Positions 34,009 to 41,347 of a DNA stretch of 62,373 bases are shown here, piece after piece. Position 1 is the first letter of the stretch, and each line of letters begins with the position of its first letter. Under the pieces are notes generated by a model, which saw only the letters and a program-made list of their open reading frames with translations, did not search any database and was not told the DNA's origin. The DNA comes from Gammaproteobacteria bacterium (GTDB lineage Bacteria; Pseudomonadota; Gammaproteobacteria; 21-64-14), in assembly GCA_027013145.1 (NCBI GenBank), contig JALUXX010000030.1, positions 1-62,373 on the forward strand, written 5' to 3'. Made by a program: the position numbers and the translations under genes.

Positions 34009-35865
34009 ATGCGGATGTTCAAGGGGGACGATCACCCCGCCGATCCGCCGGCGGAGCTGATCCTGGAACGCAACGCCTTGAGCGGTGCGCTGCTGTCCGT
34101 TACCGCGATCCTCGCCGAGGGGCGCGATCCACCGACGATCCTGCACGCGATGTGCGACGCCCTGGTCGCGGCGTCCCCGCGCCTGCGCCTGGCCTGGGCG
34201 TATCTTGGGGATCCCGACGTCGAGCGCGTGCAGCCGGTCTACGCCGCCGGGTCCGCGCGCGCCTACGCCGACTACCTGCGCCACGGCGAGTCCGCCGAGC
34301 TTTCCCTCGGCCCCATCCGCCGCTCGCTGCTGACCGATCAGCCGAGCGTCGTGCATATCCAGTACGACGGCCGTGCGGGCTCGTGGCGGGACCGGGCGCT
34401 TCAGGATCACCTGCGCGAGCGCGCCTGCATCCCCTTCGGCGACATCGGCGGGACGACGGTCTCGCGCGGCGTACTCGTCGTCTACGCCGACGAACCCGAT
34501 TATTTCGAGCGCATCGGCCTGGAGCCGTTCTTCGCCTTCGCGCGCCTCGGGGAGATGGCGATCACGCAGGCGCGGTTGTACGAGCGCCTGCAGGAGATGG
34601 CCACCGTCGATCACCTCACCGGGCTGCTCAACCGCGGCGCCCTGCAGGAGATCCTCGATCGCGAGCACGCGCGCGCGCAGCGCAGCGCACGGCCGTATTG
34701 CATGCTGCTGTTCGATCTCGATCGTTTCAAGCTGATCAACGACAGCTACGGCCACGGCGTCGGGGACGAGGTGCTGGCGGCGGTCGCGCGTCGCGCGGAG
34801 GAGGTCCTGCGCGACGGCGACTGGCTCGGGCGCTGGGGCGGGGAGGAGTTTCTCTGCCTGCTCCCGGAGACCGATCCGCACGAGGGTTACCTGGTGGCCG
34901 AGCGGCTGCGTCTGGGTATCGGCGAGCGCCCGCTCGAGGCCGGCGGCCGGCGCCTGGACGTCACCGTGAGCGTGGGGCTGGCCGCCTTCCCGCGCGACGG
35001 GGACGCCCTGGCCGATCTGCTGACCTGTGCCGACGCCGCGCTCTACGAGGCGAAGCGCTCGGGCCGCAACCGGCTGGTCAGCAGCAACGGCCGGGCGCAG
35101 GGGATCTTCTTCGTCGGCGGGCAGGTCGAGGAGGCATTACGCGACGGCCGCGTCCGCCCGGTCTATCAACCCATCGTCGATCTCGCCACCGGCGAAATCG
35201 TGGCGGACGAGGCCCTGGCGCGGATCGTGACCCCCGGCGGTGGCCTGATCGAGGCGCACGAGTTCATCGAGGCCGCCAGCCAGCTGCAACTCATCCATCG
35301 GATCGACTACCAGATCATCATGCAGACCATGCGCTACTGCATGAGCCTGATGGCCCTCGGCCGGCGGCGGCTGCACTTCGTCAACGTGTCCGCCGACCTT
35401 CTGCGCCACCCGGACCTCGTGGCGAAGCTGGTGGAGCAGGCGCGGCACTACTGCGAGCAGTGCGGCGAGCGCGAGAAACCGCTGGTGATCGAGATCACCG
35501 AGCGCGAGCTGCTCGAGGACACCGCGCAGGCGCGGCGCATCCTCACGCCGTTCCTCGACTTCGGGCTGCGCCTGGCGATCGACGACTTCGGCAGCGGCTA
35601 CTCCTCCTTCCAGTATCTCGCCGATCTCCCCGTGGCCTTCCTCAAGATCGAAGGCGATCTGGTACGCCGCGCGCCGCGCGAGCCGCGCGTGCGCGCGATC
35701 ATCCACGGCATTCAGGACACGGCCCGCTCGCTGGGCCTGACCACGTTGGCCGAGTCCGTCGAGGACGCCGCCACCATGGCGGTGATGAAGGAGATCGGCG
35801 TGCACTGGGCGCAAGGGTTTCATTTCGCCCGTCCGCAGCTCGAGTCCGGCTCGCGGGGCGCCTGA
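34009..35865 (+). CDS. GAF-GGDEF-EAL cyclic-di-GMP protein
   Basis: A 618-aa soluble protein. Residues 25-190 form a GAF-like sensor. A GGDEF domain (about 195-360) has the active GGEEF signature (LGRWGGEEFLC) and SRxxD-independent flanks. An EAL domain (about 380-610) contains EAL (VADEALAR), FVNVS, VIEITERE, IDDFGSGYSS, FLKIEGDLV and AESVED. All catalytic residues for both synthesis and hydrolysis of c-di-GMP appear to be present, so it may be bifunctional or switched by its ligand. ATG 34009 follows AGGAGAACGACCG. No transmembrane segment is visible. Confidence 0.92.
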   Translation: MRMFKGDDHPADPPAELILERNALSGALLSVTAILAEGRDPPTILHAMCDALVAASPRLRLAWAYLGDPDVERVQPVYAAGSARAYADYLRHGESAELSLGPIRRSLLTDQPSVVHIQYDGRAGSWRDRALQDHLRERACIPFGDIGGTTVSRGVLVVYADEPDYFERIGLEPFFAFARLGEMAITQARLYERLQEMATVDHLTGLLNRGALQEILDREHARAQRSARPYCMLLFDLDRFKLINDSYGHGVGDEVLAAVARRAEEVLRDGDWLGRWGGEEFLCLLPETDPHEGYLVAERLRLGIGERPLEAGGRRLDVTVSVGLAAFPRDGDALADLLTCADAALYEAKRSGRNRLVSSNGRAQGIFFVGGQVEEALRDGRVRPVYQPIVDLATGEIVADEALARIVTPGGGLIEAHEFIEAASQLQLIHRIDYQIIMQTMRYCMSLMALGRRRLHFVNVSADLLRHPDLVAKLVEQARHYCEQCGEREKPLVIEITERELLEDTAQARRILTPFLDFGLRLAIDDFGSGYSSFQYLADLPVAFLKIEGDLVRRAPREPRVRAIIHGIQDTARSLGLTTLAESVEDAATMAVMKEIGVHWAQGFHFARPQLESGSRGA

Positions 35866-35953: not shown

Positions 35954-36724
35954 TCACTCCGGCCTCTCGAGCAAGCGCGCCAACCGCGCGGCGTCGCGTG
36001 CGGCATAGGCGGCCTCGTCGTTGTCGAAGAATACATAGACTCCCTTGCCCCGCCCCTGCCAGCCGTGCACCGCATCGGCGAGAGCGCGCAGCGCCGGGAG
36101 GCGGTAGGAGCCGCCGTAGGCGCCGCGCGGCCCGTGGAGGCGCAGGTAGACATAGTCGGTGGTGGCTACATCCGGGCTGCGGAAACCGGCGAGGTGGTAG
36201 ATGCAGAACGCCACGCGCGCCTTGCGCAGCAATGCGTAGATCTCGCGGTGGTGCCAGCTCGGGTCCCTGAACTCAAAGACGTAACGCGCCGATGCCGGCA
36301 GCAACTCAAGAAAGGCGGCCAGGCGCGCCGCATTGCGGCGCCAGCGCGGCGGGAGCTGGAACAGGATCGGACCGAGCGTCGGGCCGAGCACCGCCGCCCG
36401 CTCCATGAACGCTTGCAGCGGCTCCTCGCAGTCGCGTAGTTTCCTGCGGTGCGTAATTGCGCGCGGTGCCTTTACCGCGAATCGGAACTCGTGCGGGACC
36501 GAGGCGCGCCATAGCGCAAAGACGGCCGCTTCCGGTACGCGGTAGAAAGTGCTGTCGATCTCCACCGCCCGGAACCGTTGCGCGTACCATGCGAGCCATT
36601 CGCGCGCGGGCAGCGTGGCCGGGTAGAAGCGCCCGCGCCAGTGCGCATAGTGCCAGCCGCAGGTTCCCACCCGGATCGTCTTGCGCCGCGCGGCCGCGGC
36701 GGCATTGTTTCGCGAAGCGTTCAT
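35954..36724 (-). CDS. DUF72/YecE-like TIM-barrel protein
   Basis: A 256-aa protein of the DUF72 family: IRVGTCGWHYAHWRGRFYP near the N-terminus, RAVEIDSTFYRVP, EFRFAVKAPRAITHRRKL, LGPILFQLPPRW, ARYVFEFRDPSWH, and YVYLRLHGPRGAYGGSY at the C-terminus. The family is a TIM-like barrel of unknown catalytic function. The N-terminal stretch before residue 16 (MNASRNNAAAAARRK) looks like an extended start. No clear ribosome binding site is visible. It is divergent from the unknown large gene. Confidence 0.92.
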   Translation of the reverse strand: MNASRNNAAAAARRKTIRVGTCGWHYAHWRGRFYPATLPAREWLAWYAQRFRAVEIDSTFYRVPEAAVFALWRASVPHEFRFAVKAPRAITHRRKLRDCEEPLQAFMERAAVLGPTLGPILFQLPPRWRRNAARLAAFLELLPASARYVFEFRDPSWHHREIYALLRKARVAFCIYHLAGFRSPDVATTDYVYLRLHGPRGAYGGSYRLPALRALADAVHGWQGRGKGVYVFFDNDEAAYAARDAARLARLLERPE

Positions 36725-36805: not shown

Positions 36806-39283
36806 ATGAAACCGCGAGCGCCGATCATGCCCGTTGCGCCCCGAAGTCGCATGGAACGGAGCGCACCGCCGCCCGCATCGGTCGAGGAGGCGCTACGGGG
36901 TCTCGGGCTCGCGCAAACGGCGAGCGACCGACGGCTGGATTCGCTGCCCTTCGGTCCCGAGGATATCACGGCCGGTACCGAGACCGAGTTGCAGGCCGCC
37001 GTGGGCGGGCTGCGCAGTGACGTCGATCTGCCGATCCGGATCCAGGACTCGAACTACTTCGCCAATGTCGTGCGCCACGCCGCGACGGCGGAGGCGCCCG
37101 GGCGCGCGGTCGCCGAGATCGTCCGCTTCCTCTCTCACAATCCCGACGGGGTCTGGGAGAACAGTTGGGTCCGCCTGCGCTATGCGGACCTGGGCGCCTA
37201 CGCGGCGCGGGTCCTCGACGCGGACCTGCGTCGCGACCGGCGCGACCCCTTGGGCCCATTGCGCGGGGACGCGCACCGCATCCTCTACCGGCGCCCCGAC
37301 GGCCACACGGGGGTGCGGGTGCCGATCAGCTACCTGCTCAAGCTGACGCTCGCCGGGATCATCGGGCGCCGCGGGCGGGTCCCGGCGCTGGTTTACCAGA
37401 CCGGCCACCGGCTGATGGCGCATTACCTGAACGACAACTGTTCCCCGGAGACGCTCTCTTTCAACATCCGGCCGCTGAACCGGGCCGGGGGCATGGGCGC
37501 CGCGGTGGCCGATGAGACCGCCAAGCGCTTCCTGCTCACCCATCTCCTGATCCTCTACGCCAACGAGCGCTTCGCTCTGCGCGACAGCGGCCAGACGGCG
37601 ATGGTGTACAGCTCGCCGCACCCGCCGGTGCGGCAGCGTCGCCTCAACGACTCGATCTCGGACACCTTCTATCGCGAGCTGTTCGTCAGCCCGTGTCTGT
37701 CCGGGTGGGACGACGGCGAGCGCAAGCACGCCTACATGATGCTGTGCCACGAGGTCCTCAGCCGCAGCCAGCTCAACGCCGTCGCGAAGCTGCGCGAGGC
37801 GGGAATCATCACGCGCGACCTGGTCGTGCTCCCGAACCTGTCGAACGTCAGCCTCGCCAACAACGGCACCCACGTGAGCCTCGGCAGCCGGCTCCTGGGC
37901 GGGGCGCTGCGCGCCGGGGATCGCGACTTCGGACCCGCCAGCGAGAAATACCTCGGCGACCTCGCGATCAAGATCATGGAGCACTTCCTGCCCCTGTTCG
38001 TCGGCACCTACAGCGCGGCGCCCTATCGCCTGGACTTCGAGGACTTCCACCCGGAGAAGGCACTCGCCTTCCTGCCCCACGAACTCGACTACACGCACCT
38101 GCGGATGCTGTGGCGCGGCTGGCGCCACAAGGCGCAGCTGCGCTTCCTCGGCCACACGCGCACCCCGCTGGGACCGGCCTGGATCGACCGCTCCCTGGCG
38201 CGGCTGCTGCGGCTGCGCGGCGACGTGGTGCCGGACTTCCGGCTGCTCGACTATCTGGTCGCGCTCGGCAGCACCGAGCGCAGCCCCGCCCTCGACGGCA
38301 CCCCCGGAAACGAGGAGCGCCTCAAGCGGGATCTGGCCGACCTCGGCGTCTTCGACACGCGCATGGCCGTCTATCAGTTGCTGCGCCTGCGGCCCTTCGC
38401 GCGCATGGGGTTCTCGGGCTTCGAAGGGCGCCACTACAGCCTGTTCGAGGATCTACACGGGGATCTGGGGCGCGGCGTCGATCTCCAGGCGCTGTTGTGC
38501 GCACTGGCCTACAAGTACATGATCGCGGGCGGCGTCGGCCACGCCCATATACCCGACACGCGTTTCGTCGAGAGCGAACGGCGCCAGATCGTGTTCGCCG
38601 CCGCGATCGGGGTGCCGGCGTTCTATGTGCGACGCGATACCGCCAACCGTTTTCTGCGCCGGGTACTGGAGCGCACCGCGCGCGTGCGTCCCGGACGCCG
38701 GGATCGGCGTTACCTCAAGGTCCCGCTCGCCGAATATCGCCGGGCGCTCCTCAGGGTGGTTCTGGAGGACGGCGCCGATCTGATCGAGGCCCTCGGTCTT
38801 TCGGAGACGGTGCGCGACCTGCGCGCGCGGCTCGATGAGCCTGAAGCCCTGGGCGCCGCGGCGCGGCTGCAGTCGGGCATCCTCGCCGAGGCCGGCGTGC
38901 GCTCCGCGTTCTCCCTCACCGCGGCGGAGTTCAACCGCGCCGCCGAACGCTACTACCGCGGGCCGCTCAAGCAGCATCACCTGCGCGCGGGACTGGCCTG
39001 CCTCGAGCGCGACCTGCGCGAGCTGGACGCCAACCGCATGCGCGAGCCCGCCTACGGGCACGCGATCCGCAGCCTGATCGGGGAGGAATCGGCCGCGGGT
39101 TTCCTCGCGCGGGTCCGGCCCGCACTCCTGCGCGAGGGGCTGCGCGAGAACGAACTCTATCGGCTGATCGGGCTGCTGCTGGCCGTCATCCATCGGGACA
39201 CGGAACGCTCCCAGGCCGCCCCGGAGCCGCACACGGAGGACGACGATGTACCGCCACCAGTACGTCGAGCGGGAAACGGGTAG
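36806..39283 (+). CDS. Large protein of unknown function (825 aa), first gene of a lipid cassette
   Basis: I do not recognise this protein. It is soluble-looking, rich in Arg, Leu and Asp, with no signal peptide and only weak hydrophobic segments such as VPISYLLKLTLAGIIG. Conserved-looking blocks are YQTGHRLMAHYLNDNCSPETL, RRLNDSISDTFYREL, VVLPNLSNVSLANNGTHVSLG, and EDFHPEKALAFLPHELDYTHL. Several His/Asp/Asn residues could form a catalytic or metal site. The start is uncertain: ATG 36806 is used, but 36851 (MERSAPPP) is possible; neither has a strong ribosome binding site. It overlaps the phosphatidylserine-decarboxylase-like gene by 38 bp and is almost certainly cotranscribed with it, so it may be its partner. 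Confidence 0.75.
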   Translation: MKPRAPIMPVAPRSRMERSAPPPASVEEALRGLGLAQTASDRRLDSLPFGPEDITAGTETELQAAVGGLRSDVDLPIRIQDSNYFANVVRHAATAEAPGRAVAEIVRFLSHNPDGVWENSWVRLRYADLGAYAARVLDADLRRDRRDPLGPLRGDAHRILYRRPDGHTGVRVPISYLLKLTLAGIIGRRGRVPALVYQTGHRLMAHYLNDNCSPETLSFNIRPLNRAGGMGAAVADETAKRFLLTHLLILYANERFALRDSGQTAMVYSSPHPPVRQRRLNDSISDTFYRELFVSPCLSGWDDGERKHAYMMLCHEVLSRSQLNAVAKLREAGIITRDLVVLPNLSNVSLANNGTHVSLGSRLLGGALRAGDRDFGPASEKYLGDLAIKIMEHFLPLFVGTYSAAPYRLDFEDFHPEKALAFLPHELDYTHLRMLWRGWRHKAQLRFLGHTRTPLGPAWIDRSLARLLRLRGDVVPDFRLLDYLVALGSTERSPALDGTPGNEERLKRDLADLGVFDTRMAVYQLLRLRPFARMGFSGFEGRHYSLFEDLHGDLGRGVDLQALLCALAYKYMIAGGVGHAHIPDTRFVESERRQIVFAAAIGVPAFYVRRDTANRFLRRVLERTARVRPGRRDRRYLKVPLAEYRRALLRVVLEDGADLIEALGLSETVRDLRARLDEPEALGAAARLQSGILAEAGVRSAFSLTAAEFNRAAERYYRGPLKQHHLRAGLACLERDLRELDANRMREPAYGHAIRSLIGEESAAGFLARVRPALLREGLRENELYRLIGLLLAVIHRDTERSQAAPEPHTEDDDVPPPVRRAGNG

Positions 39284-40268
39284 CATCCGCACCGAGGCGA
39301 TCTTCGCCGACCGGATCGTGCGCACGCTCTACTCGGCCGCACGCGAGAACGCGCCGGTCCTGTTCCGCGCGCTCACCGGGCGCCATGCCTCGGCGCTGCT
39401 CGGCTACCTGAACTACGACGTCGCGCTCGGCGCGCGGCTCTCGGGCGGGCGCGCCTTCCTGCGCCGGCTCGGCGTGGACCTGCGCGAGTGCCTGGATCCG
39501 CCGGAGTCCCTGGATACCGCGCGCAAGGTCTTCGAGCGCCGCATCCGCTATTGGGAGTGCCGTCCGCTGCCCGCCGATCCGCGCATCGTGGTCTCTCCGG
39601 CGGACGCCCGCGTGCTGGTGGGTTCGCTGCGCGAGGCCTCGGCCCTGTTCCTGAAGGACAAGTTCTTCGATTTCGAGGAACTCCTCGGCCGCGATCGGCG
39701 GCGCTGGCTGGCGGCGTTCGCCGGCGGCGACTGGGCGGTGTTCCGCCTCACCCCCGAGAAGTATCACTACAACCATACCCCGGTCGCGGGGCGTGTGGTC
39801 GATCACTATGAACTGCCCGGCCGTTACCACTCCTGCAATCCCGCGGCGGTGATCGCCCTCGCAACGCCCTACTCGAAGAACCGGCGCGTGGTGACCGTGA
39901 TCGACACCGACGTGCCCGGCGGAAGCGGGGTCGGGCGCGTGGCGCTGATCGAGGTGGTCGCGCTGATGATCGGGGATATCGTGCAGTGTTACAGCGAGGT
40001 GGGCTACGAACGCCCGCGGCCGGTCGAGCCGGGGATGTTCGTGGTTCGCGGGGCGCCGAAGAGTCTCTACCGGCCGGGGAGCAGCACGGACGTGCTGCTC
40101 TTCCAGCGCGGGCGCGTGCGCTTCGACGAGGATCTGTTGCGCAACCGCGCGGACGGTCGCGTCGCAAGCCGCTTCTCGCTCGGGTTTCGCACGCCGCTGG
40201 TGGAGACCGAAGTCCGGGTACGGGCCTCGGTCGCGCGGCGCATCGACGGGGCGCCGATCGCGGGGTGA
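39246..40268 (+). CDS. Phosphatidylserine-decarboxylase-like protein
   Basis: A 340-aa protein resembling PSD proenzymes. Residues 110-125 hold a strand like the usual PSD N-terminal region; YHYNHTPVAGRVVDHY carries the active-site His pattern (canonical YHRxHSPV). A GSST motif at 278-281 (RPGSSTDVLLF) is the probable self-cleavage site that forms the pyruvoyl group. The encoded enzyme would convert phosphatidylserine to phosphatidylethanolamine or act on a related head group. ATG 39246 follows GGAGGACGACG. It overlaps the gene before and is followed 26 bp on by an Lgt-like gene. Whether this is the housekeeping psd of the cell is uncertain. Confidence 0.82.
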   Translation: MYRHQYVERETGSIRTEAIFADRIVRTLYSAARENAPVLFRALTGRHASALLGYLNYDVALGARLSGGRAFLRRLGVDLRECLDPPESLDTARKVFERRIRYWECRPLPADPRIVVSPADARVLVGSLREASALFLKDKFFDFEELLGRDRRRWLAAFAGGDWAVFRLTPEKYHYNHTPVAGRVVDHYELPGRYHSCNPAAVIALATPYSKNRRVVTVIDTDVPGGSGVGRVALIEVVALMIGDIVQCYSEVGYERPRPVEPGMFVVRGAPKSLYRPGSSTDVLLFQRGRVRFDEDLLRNRADGRVASRFSLGFRTPLVETEVRVRASVARRIDGAPIAG

Positions 40269-40294
40269 CCGCGGACGACAGGGGGGCTATCGCC

Positions 40295-41347
40295 ATGAGC
40301 AGCGCAATCTTCGTGACCGTACTCGCCGTGGTCTTCGGCGCCCTTCTCCTCTGGGGTTTTCGGACGCTGCCCGGGGAGCGCTGGCAGATCCTCGCCACCG
40401 TCCCGTTCGGTAAGGGCCCGGACGGCTCCTGGCGCGGGGTGAACCTGACCTACTATGGCTTGTTCTCCGCCGTCGCCTATGCGGCGGCGCTGGCGCTCCT
40501 GTTCGTGCTGACCGGCGCCGTTGGGGTTCCCGCCTTCGCCACGCTCGCGGTATGTGCGGCGACGCTCGCCGTCTGCGTCCCTGCGGCCGGGGTGGTGGCG
40601 CGCGTGGTGGAGCGTAAACGTCACACGCTCAGCGTCGCCGGCGCCTTCTTCGTCGCGGTGCCGCTTGCGCCGATGATCCTGTGGCTCGCCGACGCGTATC
40701 TGGCGCGACCGCTGGGGTACCGTCTGCCCCTGCTGCCCATGCTCGCGGCGATGGCGATCGCCTACGGTCTGGGGGAGGGGCTCGGGCGCCTGGCGTGCAT
40801 CAGTTTCGGCTGCTGCTACGGTTGCCGCGTGGCCGATGCGCCGGCGCCGATGCGTCGCGTGTTCAAACACTGGCACTTTCGTTTCACCGGGACGACCAAG
40901 AAGATCGCCTATGCGAGCGGCCTGCAGGACGTCGCCGTGGTCCCGGTCCAGGCCCTCACGGCGATGCTCTACGTGGCGACCGCCCTCGCGGGTGTGACCC
41001 TGTTCCTGCGGGCCCGCTACCTGGCCGCCTACGTCCTCGTGCTCGTGGTGACGCAGGGATGGCGTGTCTTCTCCGAGACCCTGCGGGCGGATCACCGCGG
41101 CGGCGGGCGCTGGTCGGCCTATCAGGTGATGTCGCTGTTCGCCGCGGCGCTCGGCGTTGCGGTGGGGATCGGACTCGCGCGGACTTCCGCCCCGGCTTCC
41201 GATCTGGCGGCCGGCCTGCGCGTGCTCTGGCATCCGGACGTACTGCTCTTCATCCAGTCCTGCTGGCTGGCGATCTTCCTCTACACGGGGCGCAGTGCCG
41301 TCACCGAGGCGAGCGTCTCGGTGCGCGTGCGGCGCGAGCGGGTGTGA
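40295..41347 (+). CDS. Lgt-like (prolipoprotein diacylglyceryl transferase family) membrane protein
   Basis: A 350-aa polytopic membrane protein with seven to nine helices. The Lgt-like signature is GEGLGRLACISFGCCYGCRV, a variant of the family's GRxGNF-type loop that occurs in Lgt relatives. A later ETLRADHRGGGRWSAYQVMSL resembles the Lgt C-terminal segment. True Lgt moves diacylglycerol from phosphatidylglycerol to the lipobox Cys; with this divergence it may act on another acceptor. It is the third gene of the cassette. It ends 4 bp from the convergent tamB. Confidence 0.78.
   Translation: MSSAIFVTVLAVVFGALLLWGFRTLPGERWQILATVPFGKGPDGSWRGVNLTYYGLFSAVAYAAALALLFVLTGAVGVPAFATLAVCAATLAVCVPAAGVVARVVERKRHTLSVAGAFFVAVPLAPMILWLADAYLARPLGYRLPLLPMLAAMAIAYGLGEGLGRLACISFGCCYGCRVADAPAPMRRVFKHWHFRFTGTTKKIAYASGLQDVAVVPVQALTAMLYVATALAGVTLFLRARYLAAYVLVLVVTQGWRVFSETLRADHRGGGRWSAYQVMSLFAAALGVAVGIGLARTSAPASDLAAGLRVLWHPDVLLFIQSCWLAIFLYTGRSAVTEASVSVRVRRERV

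Follow-up and report, generated by a model that had tools for sequence, protein, structure and literature searches.

A set of three adjacent genes, referred to here as the triad, lies on a 62,373-nucleotide stretch (positions 1 to 62,373 of contig JALUXX010000030.1, assembly GCA_027013145.1) of DNA from a gammaproteobacterium of the GTDB lineage 21-64-14; this whole stretch of DNA is called the window below. The triad encodes an 825-residue protein (P825), a relative of phosphatidylserine decarboxylase (PSD-like) and a relative of the diacylglyceryl transferase Lgt (LGT-like). The three genes form an obligate module and, in Desulfobacterota, are strongly linked in the genome to pst, phoU and phn genes. 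Since the set recurs unchanged in many anaerobes, often inside phosphate-starvation clusters, the triad probably builds an undescribed phosphorus-saving membrane lipid. Put in general terms, a phosphate-linked lipid pathway is somewhat favoured; the best explanation of the observations as a whole, a biosynthetic module for membrane-lipid remodelling mainly under phosphate scarcity, has in our judgement an even chance of being right.

The triad is real in the window, where its three open reading frames (ORFs), each with an ATG start, lie on the + strand in a single operon: P825 (36806-39283, +, 825 aa, its stop codon ending at 39283), the PSD-like pyruvoyl-dependent decarboxylase (39246-40268, +, 340 aa) and the LGT-like membrane protein (40295-41347, +, 350 aa), a predicted diacylglyceryl transferase with an altered acceptor site. 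The first two genes overlap by 38 bp and the ATG of the third follows the second after a gap of 26 bp (an upstream GTG start would make these two overlap as well), which agrees with the first-pass annotation of this DNA in its description of three overlapping or nearly overlapping genes in one operon. The window holds no tRNA and the cassette no sigma-70-like promoter.

One scan of GTDB contigs returned 23 loci with P825 homologues, and in nearly all of them the PSD-like and LGT-like genes lie directly downstream; the loci belong to a sister species (BMS3Bbin13), Geobacter argillaceus, Smithella, Desulfobacula, Desulfomicrobium, Desulfocapsa and Desulfuromonas, among others, and to metagenome-assembled genomes (MAGs) of Kiritimatiellae and ‘Candidatus Magnetomicrobium’. 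Because P825 homologues of 44-57% identity stand beside PSD-like and LGT-like genes in several phyla, the triad is not a chance arrangement. In Desulfobacterota, the name used here for the phylum of Geobacter argillaceus, 345 genomes were searched with the three profiles separately; PSD-like and LGT-like turned up in an identical set of 41, of which 40 also carry full P825. The 41st genome (G166) is without P825 only because its contig stops 146 bp beyond the PSD-like gene, and one other genome (G392) yields just a 31-residue fragment match to P825. The gene order P825, PSD, LGT on the same strand is kept in all, with median gaps of 24.5 and 51 bp and with all three genes within 300 bp in 33 of the 40; in three MAGs P825 stands apart from the PSD-like/LGT-like pair, on the same contig in two of them. 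When the three proteins are compared by mirror-tree, their correlations are no more than moderate (0.59-0.68), as might be expected of chance or lineage-bound neighbours without a joint function, but the near-perfect match of presence and absence across the 345 genomes and the order conserved in divergent lineages leave that explanation scarcely credible. A search for the three genes in other genomes had been set beforehand as the comparison that could overturn the first-pass annotation, and it gave the opposite result, since co-occurrence is near-perfect across Desulfobacterota and the triad reaches well outside close relatives, into the two MAGs of other affiliation named above and a second gammaproteobacterial lineage. 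In Gammaproteobacteria the triad is rare: of 369 genomes, three have the PSD-like gene, two of them being the host and its sister species, and the third likewise has the three genes in a row. The plasmid records searched contain no P825. The spread of the triad is patchy, which suggests horizontal transfer.

Many triad loci adjoin phoB, pstSCAB, phoU, phoR, phnCDE, C-P lyase genes or phoH; these neighbours lay outside the original query and supplied the clue to function, and PhoU, PhnG, PhnJ, PhnD and PhoH were confirmed by Pfam. Within about 8 kb on each side of the triad, pst, phoU or phn genes are present at 19 of 56 distinct loci, as against none of 60 control windows of 19 kb taken from triad-bearing genomes (Fisher p 1.5e-7); in this count the loci of related genomes lack full independence, the Pho-gene queries came from the triad loci themselves, and the controls come mostly from a few closed genomes in which the sensitivity of the queries was unchecked. 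The placement of the Pho genes varies, upstream or downstream and on either strand, and they are therefore not one inherited block. In the three genomes with a separate P825, pstS, a low-molecular-weight (LMW) phosphatase gene, PSD-like and LGT-like form one same-strand cluster, with a DksA-like ORF in two of the three by the search used, and the three separate P825 copies themselves adjoin phoB, phoR or phoU, in two cases together with pst genes. In Desulfobacula the triad is followed, after about 1.6 kb, by C-P lyase genes, of which phnG and phnJ were confirmed (L023:14042-17027 and L027:12128-14933).

P825 matches no family in Pfam, NCBIfam or PHROGs; at E<=1 Pfam still offers no match for it, none of 23 homologues matches PF04262 or PF04107, and no sequence relatives were found in the PDB. 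The alignment of the 23 homologues contains more than 100 invariant columns. From these same 23 sequences, and thus not fully independently of each other, AlphaFold models were built for the window protein (pTM 0.79, with low confidence at 319-355 and in much of 412-543) and for the Geobacter homologue (pTM 0.81). Against the PDB, the best eight rows of the window model are gamma-glutamylcysteine synthetases (GCS), bifunctional glutathione synthetases and YbdK (best Z 13.3, 4.3 Å over 378 residues), and the next, unrelated row falls to Z 5.3. The best 24 rows of the Geobacter model all belong to the glutamine synthetase (GS)/GCS superfamily, with GshF at Z 15.0, GshA at 14.6, PafA at 13.5, YbdK at 13.4 and Dop at 13.2, together with plant and yeast GCL and glutamine synthetases; the next row has Z 4.0. 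For the two models together, the matches to GshA, GshF, YbdK and PafA thus range over Z 13.3-15.0 and 313-392 residues. Foldseek gave GshF at probability 1.00 for the Geobacter model, though at E 1.7e-3, and by itself gave no trustworthy match for the window model. As modelled, P825 has a GS/GCS ligase fold, and because sequence comparisons show no relation the assignment is made at the level of the fold. The first-pass annotation had called it a protein without a nameable domain, which is correct as far as the family databases go, but its fold can be named from the models.

In the GS/GCS superfamily, ATP drives the linking of an amine or ammonia to a carboxylate, which is usually that of the glutamate side chain (the gamma-carboxyl); Dop, a hydrolytic enzyme, is the exception. 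P825 is accordingly placed, as a prediction from its models, among ATP-dependent carboxylate-amine ligases, in an unannotated family of its own. Its E59-x-E61 pair (motif G57-x-E59-x-E61, codons at 36980-36988, +), proposed as the acidic pair of the Mg/ATP site, is conserved in at least 90% of alignment rows and, in the models, belongs to the first beta strand; its E540-x-R542 (in GFEGRHYS, codons at 38423-38431, +) is invariant across the homologues and forms a strand in the Geobacter model. The metal/ATP residues of Escherichia coli GshA are presumably E27/E29 and E328/R330, and the two motifs of P825, which resemble them by eye in kind and position, are the proposed counterparts. Compared with GshA, GshF, YbdK, PafA and Dop, P825 shares the overall fold in both models but has no detectable sequence similarity, is 825 aa long as against about 500, carries large inserts and is always accompanied by lipid-type genes. 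A GCS fold, together with the LMW-phosphatase (ArsC-like) genes of some triad clusters, might also be taken to mean that the triad produces a low-molecular-weight thiol, or attaches one, for redox purposes or for arsenic/phosphate handling; we consider this quite improbable, as two of the three enzymes come from lipid families and the LMW-phosphatase genes occur at few loci.

The PSD-like protein matches PF02666 at 1e-35 (123.6 bits, against a cut-off of 22). In 18 homologues D120, H174, H177 and S280 are invariant, the last within the GSST self-cleavage motif (residues 278-281; 40077-40088, +) that is conserved in the family and that the first-pass annotation had already picked out, correctly, as the mark of a pyruvoyl decarboxylase. 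It aligns to the canonical Psd of the host at E 1.1e-15, 34% identical over about 239 residues and with matching catalytic residues. It would be expected from this to be active as a pyruvoyl decarboxylase. Although it keeps the catalytic Asp/His/His/Ser and the Gly-Ser-Ser cleavage motif of phosphatidylserine decarboxylases, it differs from them in being a separate paralogue alongside canonical psd, in scoring far under the NCBIfam equivalog cut-offs and in having PAD-A, not PAD-G. So clear a member of PF02666, with all catalytic residues present, invites the alternative that it makes phosphatidylethanolamine (PE) or a PE analogue to whose amine P825 joins an amino acid or another acid, with the LGT-like protein moving or recycling diacylglycerol; the product would then retain phosphorus and the Pho linkage would reflect general envelope stress. 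The superfamily to which P825 is assigned by its fold does form amides with amines, but a modified phospholipid leaves no obvious role for an obligate LGT-like protein, a transferase that breaks the phosphate link, and the strong pst/phn linkage better suits phosphorus saving. This alternative is doubtful.

All 18 of the 18 LGT-like family members examined match PF01790, the best at 7.4e-12, and most Desulfobacterota copies score above its cut-off; the window protein, at 5.5e-5 and 23.1 bits, is just below it (24.9). The whole-length comparison with the single Lgt of the host was not significant, though the region of the signature motif was picked out, and a profile search against solved structures found no Lgt chain. 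The GCCYG loop (40808-40822, +) is invariant in the family, and the first-pass description of a divergent Lgt relative with this loop stands. Equally invariant are R168, R260, E264, R267, C171, C176 and C177 (in A2 numbering, which is 3 more than numbering from the ATG). By alignment with the host Lgt, the first four are the counterparts of Lgt R143, R239, E243 and R246, which take part in the phosphatidylglycerol site and in the hydrogen-bond network belonging to it (PMC4728403; PMC13251419), R143 and R239 being essential (PMC13251419). The counterpart of Lgt H103, a residue proposed to bind the lipobox peptide (PMC4728403) and essential in E. coli, is Val in most members and never His, and that of N146 is Cys; N146C variants occur in distant Lgts (PMC13251419). 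The combination that marks a prolipoprotein-type enzyme, His (or an aromatic residue in variants) at 103 with Asn at 146, is thus absent from the LGT-like protein. Because the arginine counterparts are kept while those of H103 and N146 are replaced, the donor site is retained and the acceptor site altered.

The loops on the active-site side of the LGT-like protein carry on average 22.6 Lys and Arg residues, compared with 2.8 on the opposite side. Under the positive-inside rule, such a bias suggests an inverted protein whose active site faces the cytoplasm, an orientation that would suit a soluble acceptor. By comparison, the active-site face of E. coli Lgt is negatively charged and periplasmic (PMC4728403). 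Besides full-length profile matches within its family, the LGT-like protein combines the donor residues of Lgt with a positive active-site side, extra terminal hydrophobic segments and coexistence with a canonical Lgt. As the known acceptor of Lgt is a lipobox cysteine (PMC4728403), and as PafA and Dop are among the structural matches of P825, the triad could conceivably act on a peptide or lipoprotein, with the LGT-like protein lipidating a special cysteine, and PSD-like and a PafA-like P825 decarboxylating or amidating that residue or a peptide partner. We think this unlikely: among ORFs of at least 90 aa, no small precursor gene was seen recurring with the triad, the recurrent extra ORF between the PSD-like and LGT-like genes is DksA/TraR-like, the remaining ORF clusters shared by many loci are of generic kinds or run antisense to it, and the position of the proposed peptide binder H103 (PMC4728403) is not His in the family. 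A phosphorus-free lipid is a likelier product than either a modified peptide or a modified PE that retains phosphorus.

The host genome (3.28 Mb, 99.9% complete) was checked for a second psd and lgt, as the first-pass annotation had advised, and both were found in canonical form, with a canonical gshA besides; because these are present separately, the host triad members are divergent extra copies and not housekeeping enzymes. The same holds for the LGT-like protein more widely, since 43 of 44 triad genomes retain a strong separate canonical Lgt match; this number counts one genome (G259) for which the canonical Lgt alone is listed and the triad copy is under threshold, and in the remaining genome (G202) the triad copy alone is listed. 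The host has in addition a third, short PF02666 gene (G000:C65:77991-78464, L003).

One kind of substrate would serve all three enzymes: Lgt uses a cysteine thiol, phosphatidylserine decarboxylase acts on a serine-type head group and GCS enzymes join glutamate to cysteine. In the proposed pathway, the simplest one, phosphatidylglycerol would give up its sn-1,2-diacylglyceryl group, which the LGT-like protein would pass to a new acceptor other than a lipoprotein, most likely a cysteine-type thiol, with release of glycerol phosphate; the freeing of glycerol phosphate by Lgt chemistry is what suits a phosphate-saving pathway. PSD-like would then decarboxylate S-diacylglyceryl-cysteine, in which sulfur chemistry mirrors the serine head group found in phosphatidylserine, to S-diacylglyceryl-cysteamine. 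P825 would, at the expense of ATP, link the remaining amine to a carboxylate, most likely the gamma-carboxyl of glutamate. Decarboxylation is placed before amide formation because pyruvoyl decarboxylases require a free alpha-amine for their Schiff base. The expected product would be a phosphorus-free zwitterionic thioether lipid, PE-like in charge. The order of steps and the identities of the thiol and the acid are guesses, within a chemistry that we infer throughout; a product of exactly the S-diacylglyceryl-N-(gamma-glutamyl)cysteamine type is a tentative suggestion that fairly clearly has the balance against it. The first-pass annotation had imagined an unusual head group or lipid modification, and a membrane-lipid function is supported by the two lipid-type families and the linkage to Pho clusters, but the product itself is conjectural.

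Several observations weigh against this phosphate-saving pathway. Neither the locus in the window nor the other gammaproteobacterial loci have pst or pho neighbours, and about two thirds of the triad loci lack a Pho neighbour within about 8 kb. Upstream of P825, a Pho-box was found in 8 of 60 regions at p<=0.05, which is not significant for the E. coli-type box that was scored and that may not be the box of Desulfobacterota. The P825 profile compared with eight GshA by hhalign reached a probability of 0.1%, that is, no sequence-level relation to GshA, and the catalytic residues of P825 were paired with those of GshA by eye, as were the loop borders and membrane topology of the LGT-like protein set. 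Finally, canonical Lgt acts on the periplasmic face (PMC4728403), and the same orientation in the LGT-like protein would make a cytosolic acceptor awkward.

The surroundings of the triad differ from one locus to another. Loci of the Smithella type have a DksA/TraR-like zinc-finger ORF, possibly a regulator, between PSD-like and LGT-like (L013:11468-11872; also in L014, L016, L026, L029, L128, L202 and L203). LMW-phosphatase (ArsC-like) genes lie between pstS and PSD-like at L201:12463-12873, L202:11849-12259 and L203:3758-4674, where the gene is doubled, and between PSD-like and LGT-like at L089:7106-7537. An IS1595-type transposase ORF separates PSD-like from LGT-like in G372 (L134:10923-11321), where the LGT-like match begins at profile position 52 and the 5' end of the gene may be disrupted. 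Three divergent lineages encode, within the triad operon or next to it, a protein of about 800 aa (L086:4011-6461, -; L030:5569-7947, +; L093:14254-16647, -) whose C-terminal half is a GT4 glycosyltransferase by Pfam and whose N-terminal half looks PHP-like by eye; it is a candidate enzyme for glycolipid synthesis within the same stress response. In the window, a GGDEF-EAL protein is encoded upstream on the same strand as the triad (34009-35865) and a DUF72 protein on the opposite strand (35954-36724). The GGDEF-EAL gene is retained in the sister species, yet it is not triad-specific elsewhere, and recurring GGDEF/EAL neighbours were rejected as a functional clue since the family is generic and present in control windows too. 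The converging neighbour is tamB (PF04357, 4.3e-58), as the first-pass annotation had read the convergence on tamB/tamA, but tamB is not conserved beside the triad elsewhere, where the conserved neighbours are phosphate-starvation genes, and the link to lipids seen in it is a local accident.

Phosphorus-free lipids, for which only a few pathways are known, act as biomarkers by which phosphate limitation is traced in anoxic waters and sediments. The triad, with its unnamed ligase family, is present in about 12% of the sampled Desulfobacterota genomes, including the culturable Geobacter argillaceus ATCC BAA-1139, where it was confirmed (L028), and could account for part of the unassigned lipidome; if the proposal is true, Lgt chemistry is used outside lipoproteins. 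Among open-access papers, no description was found of the gene trio or of cysteine/thioether lipids, and there is a real chance that the triad represents a new lipid class. Spelled out in full, that reading is of a phosphorus-free glycerolipid to which a repurposed Lgt of inverted topology joins the head group through a thioether; decarboxylation would follow, a new family of GS-fold ligases would add gamma-glutamate or form another amide, and Desulfobacterota and recipients by horizontal transfer would in this way save phosphate. It is possible though the balance is against it.

Among known pathways for lipids of phosphate limitation, those that depend on OlsBA, BtaAB and PlcP, and on Agt and OlsF, resemble the triad in their link to phosphate starvation and in the replacement of phospholipid by a phosphorus-free lipid that is proposed here. 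The sulfate reducer Desulfovibrio alaskensis G20, for instance, responds to phosphate limitation with Agt glycolipids and OlsF ornithine lipids (PMC5193443). The enzymes of the triad are entirely different from all of these, and its core includes no acyltransferase, betaine synthase or glycosyltransferase. The sulfur-containing aminolipid (SAL) of roseobacters, which has an amide-linked fatty acid and cysteinolic acid (PMC8319176, PMC11631085), shares with the proposed triad lipid the idea of a sulfur-containing amino head group; in comparison, the triad lipid would carry diacylglycerol joined through a thioether.

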